From: Arbacia lixula
Taxonomy: Eukaryota > Echinodermata > Echinoidea > Arbacioida > Arbaciidae
Length of the DNA: 64,000 nt
Direction: 5' to 3'
Assembly (NCBI GenBank): GCA_963669155.1
Contig: OZ022595.1
Coordinates: 19,185,252-19,249,251, forward strand
The notes beneath the pieces were generated by a model. It saw only the letters and a list, made by a program, of their open reading frames with translations, did no database searches and was not told the origin of the DNA. The position numbers were made by a program, and so were the translations under genes. Within the stretch, counting starts at the first letter, position 1. The number at the start of each line of letters is the position of its first letter. Positions 4,420 through 59,005 of this stretch are shown one piece after another.

Positions 4420-5119
4420 GTAAGTAATACAGATAATCACAACATAAATAAATTAGGTTATTTAGCAAAAGGAGAGTAAAAGAAGAAGTTATATGAAAGC
4501 AAATTAGTTTACATGGTATTGTAGTCGTGCTCAGTAAGGCATATTAATAATTAGCATTACATTTGAAATCATTTTATTCTCGCGTGCATGAAACAAGAAA
4601 ATAATTACAATATGTATTTTATCAACGATGAGAAACCAAAAACAATATGTGCAAATACAGGGTAGCCCTTTTGCAGGCAAAAAAAAAATGTAACGAAAAA
4701 AAAAACACGGGAAAGATAAAAATACTGTACAAAAGCTTTTCTCTTTTTTTAAATAATAAAACTAGATGCTTACTTTAAGCGAAATTATAGCTATCAAAAG
4801 ATTTCAAGAAGGAGCTTCATGACTAGTGCAAGTGGGTTATCATGTCTTTAAAGGTAAAATATGAAATTTGAATTATAAGTGTTAGCATGGCTGGTGGGTG
4901 ATGCTTTCTGAATACTTAATTTACTTCACAGTAAATGGTTCTATGTTTAGTGTTCACAAAAAAATATATATATTGTTTAGTCAAGCGTGTTGAACGCTTT
5001 GTGGGATTCATATGGCTTACTAGTAAACAAATGTACAAGTGATACACAAAGAGTTGATATTTGTTTCACGTATTAGTACATTTACACATTGATTTGATTT
5101 TATTTATTTGTATTTTCAG

Positions 5120-6889
5120 CTACATCTCAGCTCAAACTCTGGGAGAGCTATAGATAAAGGGACCACTTTCCACGGCGGTGACATGGACCGAACCGTCATA
5201 TGTGGACTCTTTCCTTGGAAGATCCCCCGGTTTCGTCTTGGCAGATTCTTCCACTCTCTCCAAGGAAGACTTCATGGTCAAAAGCGGACTCTCGTGACCG
5301 CCCTCAACGTTCAGCAGTCGCCAGTGCTGGATCAGGGAGGAGACCAGAAGCAGACTGCAGCTGGCAGCCGCCGCTGGTCCCTATTCCGCAAGCCCAACAG
5401 GGTGCAGCCGATTGAGAGGGTCGCATTCGGTGGAAGCAGCGAATCCTCTAGTGGGCACCTCCGTTCGGACAAATCGCGTTGCCACAAGACGAGGAGTGTG
5501 GCTGGCGCATCTTTGGATGTGAGCGCTCAGGGCAGCTTCTGTCTTCCAGGAGCCGTAGGGCAAACTGAAGTAGTCCCCCTTCAAGATCGATCATACGGAA
5601 GCAAGAACCAGTCTTCAGGAGATTCTACGACAAAGTCTCCTTACTTTCACCGACCAAAGTATCTCTGTGAGTCGAGCAGTGATTACAAGGTACACCAGCA
5701 TTTCGCCAAGGTTGTTGGCCCGAGTGAGTTCGCCGTCGACCAGGTGACGTCAGTAAAACCTGGTGAAACAGGACATGTGAGTGAGTTTAGAGGAAGTACT
5801 AAGACAGTACAAACGCAGGAGTACGAGGACAATGATGGCCCAAAACCCTTCTACTCTGAGCAGGGTCACATTGGTTCTGATCTCTTCTTCGGCAACGAGC
5901 GCAATGGTAAAATTAAAACTCTGCAGAATGAGAGCCGTGATGTGACAATACTTGGCCCAGAGAAGACGGAATCAGTTCCAAGGTTCGGACTTGATAAGAA
6001 CCAGAATGCTGAAGTCCCATATGATGTTCCGCCGAGCCAAATTGAACTTGCAGAGAACAAAGACTTGCAGGATCTTCCATCCAGCAGCCACAATGAACTT
6101 GCCTCAGAGACCGAGGTCTCGCAGGATCTTCCATCCAGCAGCCACACTGAACTTGTCGCAGAGACCGAAGTCTCGCAGGATCTTTCATCCAGCAGCCACA
6201 CTGAACTTGCAGAGGCCGAGGTCTCGCAGGATCTTCCCTCCAGCAGCCACGCTGAATTTGAGGAGAATTTTAACGACAAGTCTCGAGCTGAGGATGATGA
6301 TAGTCAAACAGAAGACACTGTCTACAACGATGTTGCAGTGGAGAATGATCCCGAACTGCAGAAAGATCTGGCCTTCTACGAGAATAATAATGAGGAAGGC
6401 GACGATGATCTCGACATCGACAGGATCTTGAGGAAGTGCCCACCGACAGAAGTCCTGCAGAACCTGCGAGACATGGTCCAGCTGTCCAAGAACATGACCA
6501 ACCAGCTGGAGAGGTCGCTGCGCAAAGCGGCACGGATCTCCTGCGGCCCGTTCCCCCGGATGCCGGGACTGTCCAAGGATGAGGTCATCGACAAGAAGTG
6601 CTGCAAGCTCGTTGATGAGACAGAGGAATTCGTGGGCACCATCAACAAGAATTTCATGACGTTCTACCAAGTCGTGAACGAGATGGACAAGGTGTCTGCA
6701 GAACAGGACAGTTTCGTCTCCTCCATCCTTGTGAAGACGGGACCACGTGACTGGAGGTACAAGCACGCCGCCATCATCAAGGAGATGGAGAAGCTATGGA
6801 CCAGGGTCTACCCGAAGGTCATCACCCGGATGGTGACCGACAGGGTCCCGGTAGCCATTCACGAACTCAATGAGGAGTCGGATGATTAA
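5120..6889 (+). CDS. Unrecognised 593-residue protein with internal tandem repeat, main exon
   Basis: The acceptor is a T-rich tract ending TTTTCAG at 5119; the exon then stays open for 589 codons to TAA at 6889. I do not recognise the family. From Met26 (ATG at 5183) the N-terminus MDRTVICGLFPWKIPRFRLG is rich in Arg and hydrophobics and, after Asp2, free of acidic residues for over 30 residues, which resembles a mitochondrial presequence. A Ser/Gly/Gln-rich low-complexity middle follows. Four tandem units with core SQDLPSSSHTEL lie at about residues 319-385. An acidic stretch (about 390-435, NNNEEGDDDLDIDR) leads into a roughly 150-residue C-terminal region that looks helical and compact, with basic and hydrophobic periodicity and Cys-Cys in DKKCCKL, ending ELNEESDD. 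Codon use in the last 500 nt is GC-rich relative to the surroundings, which supports real coding. Location and function are inference only. Confidence 0.85.
   Translation, partial: LHLSSNSGRAIDKGTTFHGGDMDRTVICGLFPWKIPRFRLGRFFHSLQGRLHGQKRTLVTALNVQQSPVLDQGGDQKQTAAGSRRWSLFRKPNRVQPIERVAFGGSSESSSGHLRSDKSRCHKTRSVAGASLDVSAQGSFCLPGAVGQTEVVPLQDRSYGSKNQSSGDSTTKSPYFHRPKYLCESSSDYKVHQHFAKVVGPSEFAVDQVTSVKPGETGHVSEFRGSTKTVQTQEYEDNDGPKPFYSEQGHIGSDLFFGNERNGKIKTLQNESRDVTILGPEKTESVPRFGLDKNQNAEVPYDVPPSQIELAENKDLQDLPSSSHNELASETEVSQDLPSSSHTELVAETEVSQDLSSSSHTELAEAEVSQDLPSSSHAEFEENFNDKSRAEDDDSQTEDTVYNDVAVENDPELQKDLAFYENNNEEGDDDLDIDRILRKCPPTEVLQNLRDMVQLSKNMTNQLERSLRKAARISCGPFPRMPGLSKDEVIDKKCCKLVDETEEFVGTINKNFMTFYQVVNEMDKVSAEQDSFVSSILVKTGPRDWRYKHAAIIKEMEKLWTRVYPKVITRMVTDRVPVAIHELNEESDD
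6063..6258 (+). repeat. Tandem coding repeat, units of 51-54 bp
   Basis: Four direct copies of a unit of 17-18 codons, with core QDLPSSSHTEL, separated by acidic ETEV/EAEV linkers. Units are in frame and differ by a few substitutions and one codon deletion. This is typical of a fast-evolving disordered linker that expands by unequal exchange. Confidence 0.9.
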
Positions 6890-21200: not shown

Positions 21201-21342
21201 GCACACATACACAAGCGCAAATTCGTATCCTCCCTTTCCCTCCTACGCACACACAAATTTCGCATTATTTCTTCACCGCCCTCTCTACACCTTTGCGATC
21301 AAGAAAACTATCAATACTTCATCCATGCAGTGGCGCCACACC

Positions 21343-21672
21343 TATTGTGTTTGTGAAACAAGTATTTATCTATGTATACTATAAATCAGATGTTCCTAGC
21401 TGTTCACATCAACTCCCATTCCTCCCATTCGATCAATCTATCATTTTCATCCACTCATATCTCCATGAACCTTCCATGACCACTATCTCAGCTATTGACC
21501 CCCATTTCCCAGTTTGCCCTGATACATGTCTCCATCCCCAGACATGTTTACATAACATAACCACCATCGGTACTGTGTATAATGTATAGTGTTGTGATGT
21601 GAATAAAGGCAGTTGCCACTCAGACACCAACCAAGCAAGTCCAACAGTTTCCTCCTTCTCAATACATAAAAA
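21343..21672 (+). repeat. 5' LTR
   Basis: A 330-bp LTR beginning TATTGTGTTTG and ending ACATAAAAA. It contains an AATAAA signal (GTGAATAAAGGC, about 21600-21610). The ends are not the usual TG...CA, but the start is fixed by the polypurine tract next to the other copy. Confidence 0.92.
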
Positions 21673-22090
21673 TGGCGACGAGGATGGGATCGATCTGAAC
21701 TTGCAGCATGTAGAGCCTTCAGTGCTCGGCGGGCCCGTGCTGGGCTGCGCCATGAAGGAGAAGGAGGAGGAGAAGGGAAGAGGACCGGATTGGACACTGA
21801 CGACGAATACGACTTAGCAACAAAAGAGACTGTAATAAAGAAACAGCAAATCGATCGAGGATGACAACGACATGGCGACTTGAGCCACAACGACAATTTC
21901 CAGCCCACTGCCTGCGGCTACATTCATAAGGACCTAACGTACACGACAGGGAGACTGTGCCTTCGACGACGAGTATGACAATGAGTGTGACGATGACTCC
22001 CTTGATGATGACGTACGGCCACATACGCCCGTACCACGACTCTGGAAGAGAAGACTGATACACAAGCTTCGTGCGATGACGACTGATGAC

Positions 22091-22228
22091 GATGACAATT
22101 CTGGCAGAGGAGTTCCAACTACACGAGCTGTAAACTAGATCTCTGACGACGCCGACGACGATGACGATTCTGGCAGAGGAGTTCCAACTACACGAGCTGT
22201 AAACTAGAACTCTGACGACGCCGACGAC
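22091..22228. repeat. Two tandem 69-bp units inside the LTR element
   Basis: 22091-22159 and 22160-22228 are direct repeats with only a few differences. The units contain TGGCAGAGGAGTTCCAACTA and end in GACGACGCCGACGAC. The surrounding 700 bp is full of GACGA and GATGAC words, unlike the AT-rich right half of the interior. Confidence 0.9.
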
Positions 22229-23385
22229 GATTCCAGCCCTGAGCTGCGGCTGATGAGCTGAGGACCTGAAGCTATGCGACTAGCTGGGTGCCTCCAGCGA
22301 TGATGTCCGGCAACCTGCGACAAGATGTCCTGCGTAGTAAGCCCGCGACAACCATGACAACGAGAACCGAAATGACCGATGACAACACGTGACAGCGATG
22401 ACTTCACGACGAAAGCGAGAACTGAGATGACTATGATGACAACGGGAACCGAGACACGAAAGCGATGACTCCACTACGATTGACGACAGCGCGAGGACAA
22501 CGAACATGATGACGAAGACCGCGATGATAGCGATGACCGAACAACAGACTGACACTCGATCCTGATAATTAATGTATGATATTCTGCCGTGACAGCACGC
22601 TCAACGCGCAATCACGAGAACACTCGCCCCATGCATAATTACTTTAAATGGACAAGAAATTGAAAGAACTTGAACATTAATGAATCCACCTTGCAACTGT
22701 AAAAGTTAGAACTCTATATGCATATTGGACTTCAACCAGAACTTGATTGGACACAATCTCAAAGGACAATCCTGATTTCTGAATTGTATCATGTTGTGTT
22801 TTGACCCTGTGATTTCACAGCGTATCGAATGTCCACGTTTGCATTGTTGTATGTCAGCCATGAATGTTCTATCTAATTCAAGGGGGAGATACTCTGAAGA
22901 TAAACTTTCAGAATTTCGCAACCGATGTTTATATGCTGATCCAATGATGCCTTTGAGGATTGCATAATCTTGAACTGTCTGTATACGATGTATTAAACTA
23001 ATGTTCTTCTGTGAAGACTTGTTTCAATGTTAAGCGTAGTTTTATCATACCAAGAAGAAATTAGTTGGAACGATCCAAGGTTAGTTTGTATTTAAAAGAA
23101 TGTTAAGTTTCACTTGTTTTCTCTTATAACAAAAGGAGAGGAATATCAAAAGTATTATGGGACGATACGAAACTGATAGCCAAGTTTTGCTTATCTGAAA
23201 CACTCAGGGTATTGAGAGTGTTGTACTCAAGTTAATGTTGTACTCAAGTTAGATATGACAGGTTACTCCAGTTTAATTGTACCTTCAATATATTCGCGTT
23301 GGTTGGTTGAGATACTTATATAAACCACTTATTTGCAGTTTTTGATGTTAACCGAGCACTCAAAGATACGAGTACTTATTTCCAA

Positions 23386-23386
23386 G

Positions 23387-23423
<37 letters not shown>

Positions 23424-23424
23424 G
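23386..23424. repeat. (TTGA)n microsatellite in the LTR element
   Basis: About nine uninterrupted TTGA units lie in the interior of the retrotransposon, 420 bp before the 3' LTR. Confidence 0.9.
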
Positions 23425-23843
23425 ATGATTTCAATAAATATGCACATATGTTTGTACAGATGTAAGCTCGAAGTTTGCTTTATAGGTTTTGATTGAAAGT
23501 CTGTTACTTGTTACAGGTTCAATACAAGTTCAATAAAAAAGATATGTTTCAGTATGTAAACTGTATTTTCAATACAATTGTGCTGATCAAATGAGTTTGT
23601 CAGGATACCCCGTAGGTTTAGCTGGTATAGATATAAGCATTGTATATTTCCTAGTGAGTATGTTTATGATTAGTATGTATTTGTTTATCATGTACAGATA
23701 CAGTAATTTGGAATCTCACCAGTATAATCAATCAATATGTGCGTTGTACAGTTTAACATTTCGACATCATTCAAGTTGACTCAAGTTGAGGCATATTATT
23801 TTGGTATGGTATAGATGATCATTTTTTGTAAGAAAGGGAGGGA

Positions 23844-24173
23844 TATTGTGTTTGTGAAACAAGTATTTATCTATGTATACTATAAATCAGATGTTCCTAG
23901 CTGTTCACATCAACTCCCATTCCTCCCATTCGATCAATCTATCATTTTCATCCACTCATATCTCCATGAACCTTCCATGACCACTATCTCAGCTATTGAC
24001 CCCCATTTCCCAGTTTGCCCTGATACATGTCTCCATCCCCAGACATGTTTACATAACATAACCACCATCGGTACTGTGTATAATGTATAGTGTTGTGATG
24101 TGAATAAAGGCAGTTGCCACTCAGACACCAACCAAGCAAGTCCAACAGTTTCCTCCTTCTCAATACATAAAAA
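23844..24173 (+). repeat. 3' LTR
   Basis: It appears identical to the 5' LTR over 330 bp, preceded directly by the polypurine tract AAGAAAGGGAGGGA (23830-23843) and followed by the target duplication CACC. Zero visible divergence implies insertion in the recent past or gene conversion. Confidence 0.92.
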
Positions 24174-24177
24174 CACC

Positions 24178-31500: not shown

Positions 31501-32303
31501 CTATACTTTGTAATAAGCTGTAATAATGTTATACTTAAATAAATTGTAAATGTTTTTAATTATACTAATGTCTTTTCGTTCGCAAAGCTAATAGAGACGT
31601 CGTATTTGGTTTGATGAGAGAACTAATAATATATTCTTATAGAGAAAACTTGGGGATTAATATCTTGTAAAAAATTGCAAGATCAAATATTGAACTCACA
31701 CAATAATTTTTAATGCAATCATGTTTTCAAGTATTTTGAGGGTTATGTGTATATATACCATTTTTAAGTGGTTATCAAATATAATTTCATGTTAAGTAGT
31801 CTTCTAACATTTGAATAGAGTGGGCGCCTTTGTGAAACGTCTTATCAGTTTGTTCATGCCAAGGAATATGCAAATATTCACTCGAACATTGCAGCTTGAA
31901 AGAATTTACTTGATATTCTTGTTGTTGTTATGTTTGTGGAGAAAAGAAAATTCCGGACATTAACCTAACAATTCGGTAGCTGTCCTCCTGTTGGCTGTAG
32001 ATGTTTGTGTTGTGGTGCAAACATACAAAGTTGTGGTTTTATTATTGTTAATATTCCATTCAGTATTATTTACAGTATGAAAGGGACTCATATACGTGGT
32101 TGGATAGTGTGACTATGTATACTCTATATACCGGTTTGGCAAAGGGGAATTGACATGCCCCCGGCCACCCGCCCATTGTAGCTTCTTTGATAGTCTGAAT
32201 TCTGTATGTGTCATTGATGTAATTTGGGAAGGAGATTTCACATTTTTCAAAGAGCAGCAGTTTGTCTGGTTCTCAAATTTCTCTTTTTCATTCTTTATTA
32301 CAG
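28574..32303 (+). other. Sp5 intron, 3.73 kb
   Basis: The intron runs from donor GTACGT to an acceptor with a T-rich tract ending TTATTACAG. It is strongly AT-rich with a (TAG)n microsatellite at about 31464-31487. I see no nested gene. A TCF-type CTTTGATA lies about 115 bp before the acceptor (near 32186). Confidence 0.75.
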
Positions 32304-33563
32304 CTTCCAGAGACGAACGTAGGCAAACCAGGCCAGCCGAGCCCCCTCGCGATGTTAGCAGCAACCTGCAGAAAGATCGGCGGCCCAGCGTCGGCGAGCG
32401 ACTCAGTCAGCGACCGCCAAGCCGTCACGCGGGGACCGGACCACGGTGCGCTCGTGATAAAATCCCCCACTCCAATAGCAGCTACCGCCGCAGTGCTGCC
32501 CGGCGCTCCAGCGGGACGCCGATACGAGCTGCCGCCCACGCCTCCCGCGGAAGGAGCAGTGCCGACTCGCTGTGATTGTGGACATTTGTCGGCGGTTACG
32601 GGGCTGGTGCATCACAGTGTGTTACCGTCTCCGAAGCAGACTTGTTTGAAGCATTTGTGGTCGACAGCAGTGGCAGCAGCGGCACATCATCACACGCCGG
32701 ATATGGCGTCGTTATCCATGCCGTACCTCGGCCATCAGGGACACCTCCCCACCTACCACCACCCCACAGCGCACCACCACCCGTGTATCTCATTACCCGT
32801 ATCAGCGGGTTTCCCCCACCACGCGCTCCCTCATCCGTACTCACAGTGCAAAGCGCCCAGCCCGCCTATTACTCCGTCGTTCCACCACCATCACCACCAC
32901 CACCACGGCTTCAACCTCTCCGCTGCCGTGTCTCCCCCGAGCATCAACATCCCCAGCCCCGTCCGACTCTCTCCCCCTGCCGAGGACCAGCAGTGGTGGA
33001 GCCTTACGCAACATACTCCACCCCAGACTTTCCCGCACTCCCCACTCTCCTTGCCAGCTCATCCCGGCCAGGCATTCGGCCTCTACCCCCACCACATGGA
33101 CCCAGCCTCCCGGCCGGCCAACTCCCTCACAAAGCTCGCCGCCCGCCGCTGTAGGCGGTGTCGCTGTCCGAACTGTCTCAATCCCTCAAGCTCCGGCGAG
33201 CCAGCGAAAAAGCGCCAGCACATCTGCCACATCCCCGGCTGCGGGAAGGTCTACGGGAAGACCTCGCACCTCAAGGCCCATCTCCGCTGGCACACGGGCG
33301 AGCGGCCGTTCGTCTGTAACTGGCTTTTCTGCGGGAAATCCTTCACGCGGTCGGACGAATTGCAGCGGCATCTCCGCACGCACACGGGCGAAAAGCGGTT
33401 CGTGTGTGCTGAATGTGGCAAGCGTTTCATGCGAAGCGACCATCTCAGTAAACACTCCAAGACGCATCTGGTACGAAAAGAGGCGGCGTCCGTTTCCCCG
33501 CAGGAGGACTGCATGTCGGATAGTGACAGCGAGGACGAAATTGTTGATGTCACATCCGAATGA
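32304..33563 (+). CDS. Sp5: Sp5-type zinc-finger transcription factor, second coding exon
   Basis: This exon adds residues 13-431 of a nuclear DNA-binding factor that recognises GC/GT boxes and acts downstream of Wnt signalling in other animals. In order: the Sp box [10 protein letters not shown] (residues 25-34), a Sp5-like YELPPTPP motif (about 86-93), Pro/His-rich activation region with eight consecutive His (206-213), a Sp5-like WWSL (243-246), the Buttonhead box [11 protein letters not shown] (about 293-303), then three C2H2 fingers. Zinc ligands are Cys320/Cys325/His338/His342, Cys350/Cys355/His368/His372 and Cys380/Cys383/His396/His400. The acidic tail [12 protein letters not shown] ends at TGA (33563). 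WWSL and ELPPTPP favour Sp5 over Sp6-9. The frame is open upstream of the acceptor but lacks an ATG, so the join to exon 1 is needed. No defects seen. Confidence 0.95.
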
Positions 33564-34178
33564 TGAACCCAAAACCATCCAACTCACTCTTATTTCGGTC
33601 GTTGGTATATTCCATCACCAAACGCTCTTATCGCTAACATTCGCCATATTGCACTCCAAAAAAATATCAAAGTTTTCAATTTTTGAAGTTATTGGGAAGA
33701 ACTTATTATTGATGCAAAGCTTGCACATTCCGTCACGTCACCCAAATAAACGAATGTTTGATGAAATGGAAATGGTAAAATACTCACAAACACATGTGAT
33801 TCTTGTAATCAATTTGCAGATAGATTTATTAGGTATTATAATGACAATCTTACTTCTGGAAACAGATAATGTTCCGAAGTTTGAGAGGTTTCGTAACTTC
33901 TTTCCTGTAACATTCATGCCCAAACTTATGCTTGCATTTATTTGTGTTTACTAGAAAATATTGTCAAATGATAATCACACCTTTGAATGTCTTCACATCA
34001 CCAACAACAGTGATATTCATATGCCCCAAATCAAACGACATCCTATCAATTCAGTGAATAATGATATAAAAGAGGAATATCGCTCACATTAGTAATAATT
34101 TCCTTTTATGGCTATTGACCTCAACTTGGCCTATTGATGAAGATGATTTGTGTTCGGTCTAAATCGTTCTTCAATAAA
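33564..34178 (+). terminator. Sp5 3' UTR with two polyadenylation signals
   Basis: AATAAA occurs at 33745-33750 (about 180 bp after the stop) and again at 34173-34178. AT-rich sequence between the stop and the second signal has no other gene. Either or both could be used. Confidence 0.55.
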
Positions 34179-58632: not shown

Positions 58633-59005
58633 TTAAAGGGCATATACTGTACTGGGAAGGTGAAAAAGCCTTCAAAATGTAATCGTTAGCAATCTTCTTG
58701 CCAATGGTCTTAAATTCATGTAGTGTCTATTTTAGAAGCTTGCTGAAAGTTATTTGCCCTCAAATGATCTACATTTGGAGTAATGAGTGATTAAATCACA
58801 AATCCTCAAAATGTTCGGGCCGAACATGTTGAGGATTTAATCATTAATCATTAATTACTCCATATGTGGATCATTTGAGGGCAAATAACTTACAGCAAGC
58901 TTCTAAAATAGACAATACATGAATTTAAGACCATTGGCAAGAAGATTGCTAACGATTACATTTTGAAGGCTTTTTCACCTTCCCAGTACAGTATATGCCC
59001 TTTAA
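58633..59005. mobile_element. 373-bp near-perfect palindrome, TTAA at both ends
   Basis: The two halves are inverted copies with few differences, meeting at GTTCGGGCCGAAC (centre at 58819). The ends are TTAAAGGGCATATACTGTAC and its complement. TTAA at both tips could be a piggyBac-type target duplication, but because TTAA is itself palindromic it could also be part of the arms. No coding capacity. It would form a long hairpin as single strand or RNA. Confidence 0.85.

Follow-up and report, generated by a model that had tools for sequence, protein, structure and literature searches.

The window, a 64,000-nucleotide stretch of Arbacia lixula contig OZ022595.1, contains an LTR retrotransposon of 2830 bp whose 2.17-kb interior lies between direct terminal repeats that are bordered by a target site duplication (Table 1). 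A tRNA primer site is found past the 5′ LTR and a polypurine tract ahead of the 3′ LTR, both of them as described in an initial annotation of the sequence.

Table 1. Features of the LTR retrotransposon and its borders, in window coordinates
Feature	Position	Strand	Evidence
Left target site duplication, ACACC, 5 bp	21338–21342	.	Comparison of flanking 5-mers
5′ LTR, 329 bp, TATTGTG...CATAAAA	21343–21671	+	Exact repeat; boundaries of other copies
Spacer of one base between 5′ LTR and primer site	21672		
Primer binding site, 18 nt, complement of tRNA-Ser(GCT) 3′ end with CCA	21673–21690	+	
5′ non-coding module, GAC-rich	21691–22849	+	
69-bp unit in 2.1 tandem copies, within the 5′ module	22088–22231	+	
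Conserved block, common to gag-fragment and autonomous elements	22850–23011	+	
Mosaic stretch of gag-fragment lineage origin	23153–23539	+	56/57 informative sites
TTGA microsatellite, within the mosaic stretch	23387–23423	+	
Polypurine tract, abutting the 3′ LTR	23830–23843	+	
3′ LTR, 329 bp, no difference from the 5′ LTR	23844–24172	+	
Right target site duplication, ACACC, 5 bp	24173–24177	.	Comparison of flanking 5-mers

The longest exact repeat covers 330 of 330 bases (21343–21672 versus 23844–24173), which upholds the LTR identity reported earlier, whereas the lengths given with it, 330 bp for the LTRs and a four-base CACC duplication, required correction: the boundaries of other copies move the end by one base, to an LTR of 329 bp and a 5-bp duplication, ACACC. 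Because the duplication in the window starts with A, that base can be counted with the LTR, which then seems longer by one base at the expense of the duplication. Far from containing the many differences that would speak against recent movement, the LTR alignment contains none, in agreement with the very young insertion initially proposed. In every one of the 17 single elements with paired LTRs, the 5-mer to the left of the 5′ LTR equals the 5-mer to the right of the 3′ LTR, and none of 272 mismatched flank pairings used as a control agreed. All family copies compared begin with TATTGTG and most end with ACATAAAA, and this start and end are also present in the LTR of the autonomous relative described below; since these termini recur in the copies and in that relative, the ends that had been flagged as atypical are a family trait. 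The primer site pairs with the 3′ end of a tRNA-Ser(GCT) gene present in this genome, which in the ARAGORN prediction is one base longer than the assumed discriminator position, and with the CCA that is added to the tRNA gene product. The 18-mer occurs 95 times in the genome, and the same pattern read backwards occurs 0 times. For the LTR itself, there was no Rfam match at gathering score to 5S or another known RNA and no tRNA; its two weak sub-threshold RNA matches (E 3.6 and 4.6) are at chance level, and the presence of a tRNA, 5S or other known RNA in the LTR was rejected.

The absence of a gag or pol frame from the interior, a central claim of the initial annotation, was borne out. A Pfam search of 10 of the 37 listed frames found nothing above cut-off in the interior, no sense ORF longer than 107 aa is present in any of 16 non-coding interiors behind LTRs of the window's type (alpha), the window included, and tblastn with eight proteins of the gag-fragment elements described below gave no match at E 0.01 to these 16 interiors. 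A hidden gag-pol, or a complete one broken by frameshifts, was not found and was rejected on the Pfam scan of the 10 frames together with the tblastn negatives. In the element we found no gag-pol of its own with an integrase past RT-RNase H, the arrangement by which Ty3/gypsy elements (Metaviridae) are recognized, and its filing as dependent on a Ty3/gypsy gag-pol element is only probable. LARDs have a large non-coding interior of about 3.5 kb between their LTRs; the window interior is likewise non-coding, but at 2.17 kb it falls under the usual LARD size.

Searching the genome (607 Mb in 590 contigs) with the LTR, as had been advised, identified at least 40 matches at 93–100% identity, a lower bound on copy number given that the best 40 of 212 candidates were scored. 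Among 20 stretches fetched, 16 hold a single element with two LTRs and one holds a tandem array (L009), while three were set aside from the pair counts: two with one LTR (L026 and L028) and one with one LTR and an inverted partial match at 79% (L027). Together with the window, these provided 17 single elements and 19 LTR pairs, the two array pairs sharing the middle LTR. In this sample of top-scoring matches, which may favour young copies, 15 of the 19 pairs have no difference (14 of 17 among single elements), and the other four have 6 (one side of the array), 4, 1 and 2. The nearest LTR from another copy is 0.9–4.9% different; because the copies are this far apart despite their identical pairs, the insertions are young but derive from several diverged source lineages. 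Lengths range from 2.68 to 3.63 kb for the 17 paired single elements and are about 3.75 kb for the tandem units, none being of gag-pol size, and the 15 non-coding interiors other than the window's measure 2.02–2.31 kb. The L009 array has the order LTR-interior-LTR-interior-LTR with identical interiors, a third LTR differing at 6 of 329 positions, and GTCTG at both outer flanks. In four copies (L011, L017, L019 and L022), variants of the primer site read GTAAGT just past the primer-site core, a motif that we take to resemble a splice donor.

Using the first 400 bases of the 5′ module (21691–22090) as query and scoring the best 40 of 49 candidates, we located at least 17 places at 78–100% identity including the window (the 16 others at 78–97%) and 23 more at 74–75%, mostly over query positions 2–323 or 18–323. 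At least one further copy, L024, lies outside these best 40 of 49 matches. Three of the 23 weaker matches (L063–L065) all carry a second type of LTR (beta), which aligns with the alpha LTR of the window only at positions 1–80 and from about 194 onward; they have the same LTR start and primer-site core as alpha elements, and no sense frame longer than 120 codons was present in the three. Another element, L066 (81% in the 5′ module), has an alpha-like LTR at 92%. For elements chosen otherwise than by their LTR, the LTR pairs of L032 and L066 have 0 mismatches in 289 and 339 positions, respectively, that of L064 has 1 mismatch in 285, that of L063 has 1 mismatch and 2 gap positions in 300, and that of L065 has 3 mismatches and 3 gap positions in 301.

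Two of the alpha-LTR elements, L009 and L025, match the window over the final 1 kb of the interior (91% and 84%, respectively) and hold an intact frame in the 5′ interior, 483 and 482 aa from the first ATG. The N-terminus of this protein, here called the gag fragment, is 58% identical to the autonomous gag over 66 aa, the zinc-knuckle-matching part of the autonomous gag has no counterpart in it, and its tail is acidic, with aspartate and glutamate together making up 22–25%. Compared with Pfam and PDB, the gag fragment gave no match. A protein search of the genome found at least 71 pieces at E 0.001 or better among the best 88 of 135 candidates; six more intact frames lie behind beta LTRs (L032–L036 and L040), and other copies are broken, interrupted or adjoining N. 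Across the eight intact ORFs, mean dN divided by mean dS came to 0.32 for the N-terminus, 0.61 for the middle and 0.66 for the tail, with dN exceeding dS in 2, 8 and 1 of the 28 pairs, respectively; between L009 and L025, dN is greater than dS in both the N-terminus and the middle. For this set of ORFs, picked for intactness and compared in pairs that are not independent, the ratios suggest modest constraint on the gag fragment. One of the beta elements, L033, contains two primer sites in one element (L033:734–1459), with a shortened non-coding module followed by the gag-fragment module, and is probably a recombinant.

The look for full-length gag-pol relatives proposed in the initial annotation was successful, as two loci matching the gag fragment (C9 and C14; 57% over 90 aa) have an open frame of 1369 aa. 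Searched piecewise against Pfam, C9 matches RVT_1, RT_RNaseH, Integrase_H2C2 and rve in Ty3/gypsy order; in the gag piece, zf-CCHC and Retrotrans_gag scored under their cut-offs. The C9 LTR pair has 1 difference in 336, and the target duplication is GGAGG (5 bp). On its 5′ side, the part that was compared, C14 is 99.6% identical to C9 over 489 bases with different flanks, and it thus appears to be a second insertion of a C9-type element. The features by which passages of PMC11302176 judge autonomous and non-autonomous elements to be a pair are common to C9 and the window element: the LTR termini TATTGTGTTT...ACATAAAA, a near-identical polypurine tract, and a primer-site core in which 13 of 18 nt agree. 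A partner with the same LTR or primer site, expected to be active, had been predicted from the window alone; as to sequence, the prediction holds for the 13-nt primer-site core but not for the LTR, which aligns only at positions 1–211, at about 80%. Two giant frames, at C21 (2509 aa) and C16 (1905 aa), were rejected as partners, their stretches holding about 1500–1700 N. From these likenesses, the C9/C14 gag-pol element is the likely enzyme supplier of the non-coding family.

We compared the final 1000 interior bases and the 3′ LTR of the window copy with three non-coding copies (L016, L023 and L011) and with L009, a set picked after the nearest-neighbour table. Of 108 informative sites, the window copy carries the L009 state at 63 and the state of the non-coding copies at 45. 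Every one of the 25 sites between 22861 and 23094 is of the non-coding type, and the L009 type is found at 56 of 57 sites in the mosaic stretch (Table 1) and at 7 of 51 elsewhere. None of 300 permutations reached the observed statistic. In its 5′ module the window copy is nearest to non-coding copies (2.2% different), and in its LTR nearest to the 3′ LTR of L009 (0.9%). Such mosaics commonly arise by template switching between co-packaged RNAs, and the pattern here is suggestive of such an event in a particle shared by both lineages. Recombination in the wheat element Quinta is ascribed to template switching in a passage of PMC11302176.

We consider it very probable that the window element is a recent, protein-less LTR retrotransposon copied in trans by a Ty3/gypsy gag-pol element, with a gag-fragment sister as template partner. 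The RNA of the element would be made from the LTR promoter and would be packaged into the particles of a Ty3/gypsy-type gag-pol element resident in this genome; tRNA-Ser(GCT) would then prime reverse transcription, and the enzymes of the gag-pol element would reverse transcribe and integrate the copy, leaving the 5-bp target duplication. The template partner would have been the sister lineage, which has LTRs of the alpha type and encodes an acid-tailed N-terminal fragment of gag.

Gene conversion between chromosomal copies, in place of recent insertion and template switching, could also have made the mosaic and the LTR identity, as mosaic tracts can arise in this way and the L009 array combines two identical LTRs and interiors with a third LTR that has 6 differences. 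Identical pairs in 14 of 17 single elements, however, stand beside LTRs of other copies that are 0.9–4.9% off; conversion would have to act within and not between copies, and all 17 single elements have kept their target duplications intact, so that we regard this explanation as very improbable. Least probable among the alternatives is that the window element arose by simple internal deletion from an autonomous element that bore these LTRs. In favour of this, a 162-bp block past the autonomous gag-pol frame is common at 84%, and a full-length copy could be missed among LTR matches of which the best 40 of 212 were scored; but positions 21691–22849 match neither the fetched autonomous pieces nor the gag-fragment ORF, and no paired single element or tandem unit reaches gag-pol length. 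The paired elements do not include L026, L027 and L028, in which no same-family partner LTR lay within the fetched stretch.

Copying in trans leaves a choice of helper, and a different gag-pol family that carries all 18 nt of the primer site, in place of C9/C14, is an unlikely candidate but one to be taken more seriously than the two explanations above. Some of the 95 occurrences of the 18-mer lie just upstream of long frames with gag-like starts, for example at C10:5908481 (1398 aa) and C17:510003 (1331 aa), and the C9 primer site agrees at 13 nt only. Against this, among gag-pol-sized frames in the best 88 of 135 candidates only C9 and C14 reach 57% identity to the gag fragment, the rest being at 35–43%, and C9 and the window element have their LTR termini and LTR positions 1–211 in common.

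What is unusual in this system is the gag fragment with its acidic tail. This protein may bias packaging, or it may contribute subunits to the capsid, a role that has been put forward for semi-autonomous elements in wheat. A more specific reading, which we offer tentatively and with less than even confidence, is that it would be a working protein that enters autonomous capsids via its N-terminal domain, favouring packaging of non-coding and gag-fragment RNA or blocking that of full-length RNA, with the acidic tail replacing the RNA-binding part. If this is true, an animal would harbour a parasite-on-parasite system in which the non-coding elements form the third level.

Multi-level autonomy itself is known from wheat (passages of PMC11302176 and PMC9744471). 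Autonomous, semi-autonomous and non-autonomous members co-evolve in RLG_Wilma, RLG_WHAM and RLG_Sabrina, which resemble the elements studied here in having three autonomy levels and a semi-autonomous member with gag and without RT and integrase; these are plant elements with gag and proteinase, whereas here, in an animal, there is the gag N-terminus only, with an acidic tail (according to parts of PMC9744471). RLG_Cereba and RLG_Quinta, which were paired on the basis of their primer site, LTR termini and polypurine tract, likewise include a non-autonomous partner that encodes gag, as the sister lineage encodes its fragment, but Quinta is centromeric and has a clear gag plus DUF1, whereas the window element encodes nothing (excerpts of PMC11302176). 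TR-GAG elements are similar to the sister lineage in having LTRs and a gag-only ORF, yet theirs is a full gag of 562 aa, in contrast to the N-terminus only in the sister lineage and no ORF in the window element (sections of PMC8704663). Among non-autonomous LTR elements of animals, to which biv-TRIM (PMC6934838, in part), ant PbTRIM and tapeworm TRIM belong, TRIMs are shorter than 1000 bp, compared to 2830 bp for the window element (same part of PMC6934838). Helenus is also a non-autonomous animal LTR element, but with tRNA-like LTRs and 4-bp duplications in animals, whereas the window element has neither and a 5-bp duplication (passages of PMC10886601). Our literature search on animal cases and gag-only elements, which left most subscription journals and Repbase outside, found no three-level animal system, only TRIMs in bivalves, an ant and a tapeworm and the Helenus group.

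The helper of non-autonomous LTR elements is often not found, as for biv-TRIM and several others (part of PMC6934838). The genome analysed here contains a complete relative alongside the non-coding element and its gag-fragment sister; most dated copies are young, and the recombination scar in the window copy joins two levels of the system. Trans-packaging and template switching thereby become testable in an animal, and the elements point to an unusual gag derivative.

The 162-bp block at 22850–23011, which lies past the C9 gag-pol frame, is less close to the window in gag-fragment elements than in C9. Within it, about 950 bases ahead of the window's 3′ LTR, is a purine tract (22880–22889) that is a possible second polypurine tract; for conserved RNA structure in the block, 0 of 16 predicted pairs had changes on both sides, which gives no support from covariation, and such a structure was rejected. 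Elsewhere in the window, we noted an open frame of 598 codons containing a tandem repeat of about 54 bp (5093–6886), and a minus-strand open frame (2065–2532) that presumably resembles part of a GPCR. Overlapping long open frames of 446 and 434 codons occupy 32223–33951, with a translation that we take to resemble an Sp/KLF-type transcription factor, and a near-perfect palindrome lies at 58633–59005, its 186-nt arms being 94% complementary with 1 nt between them.
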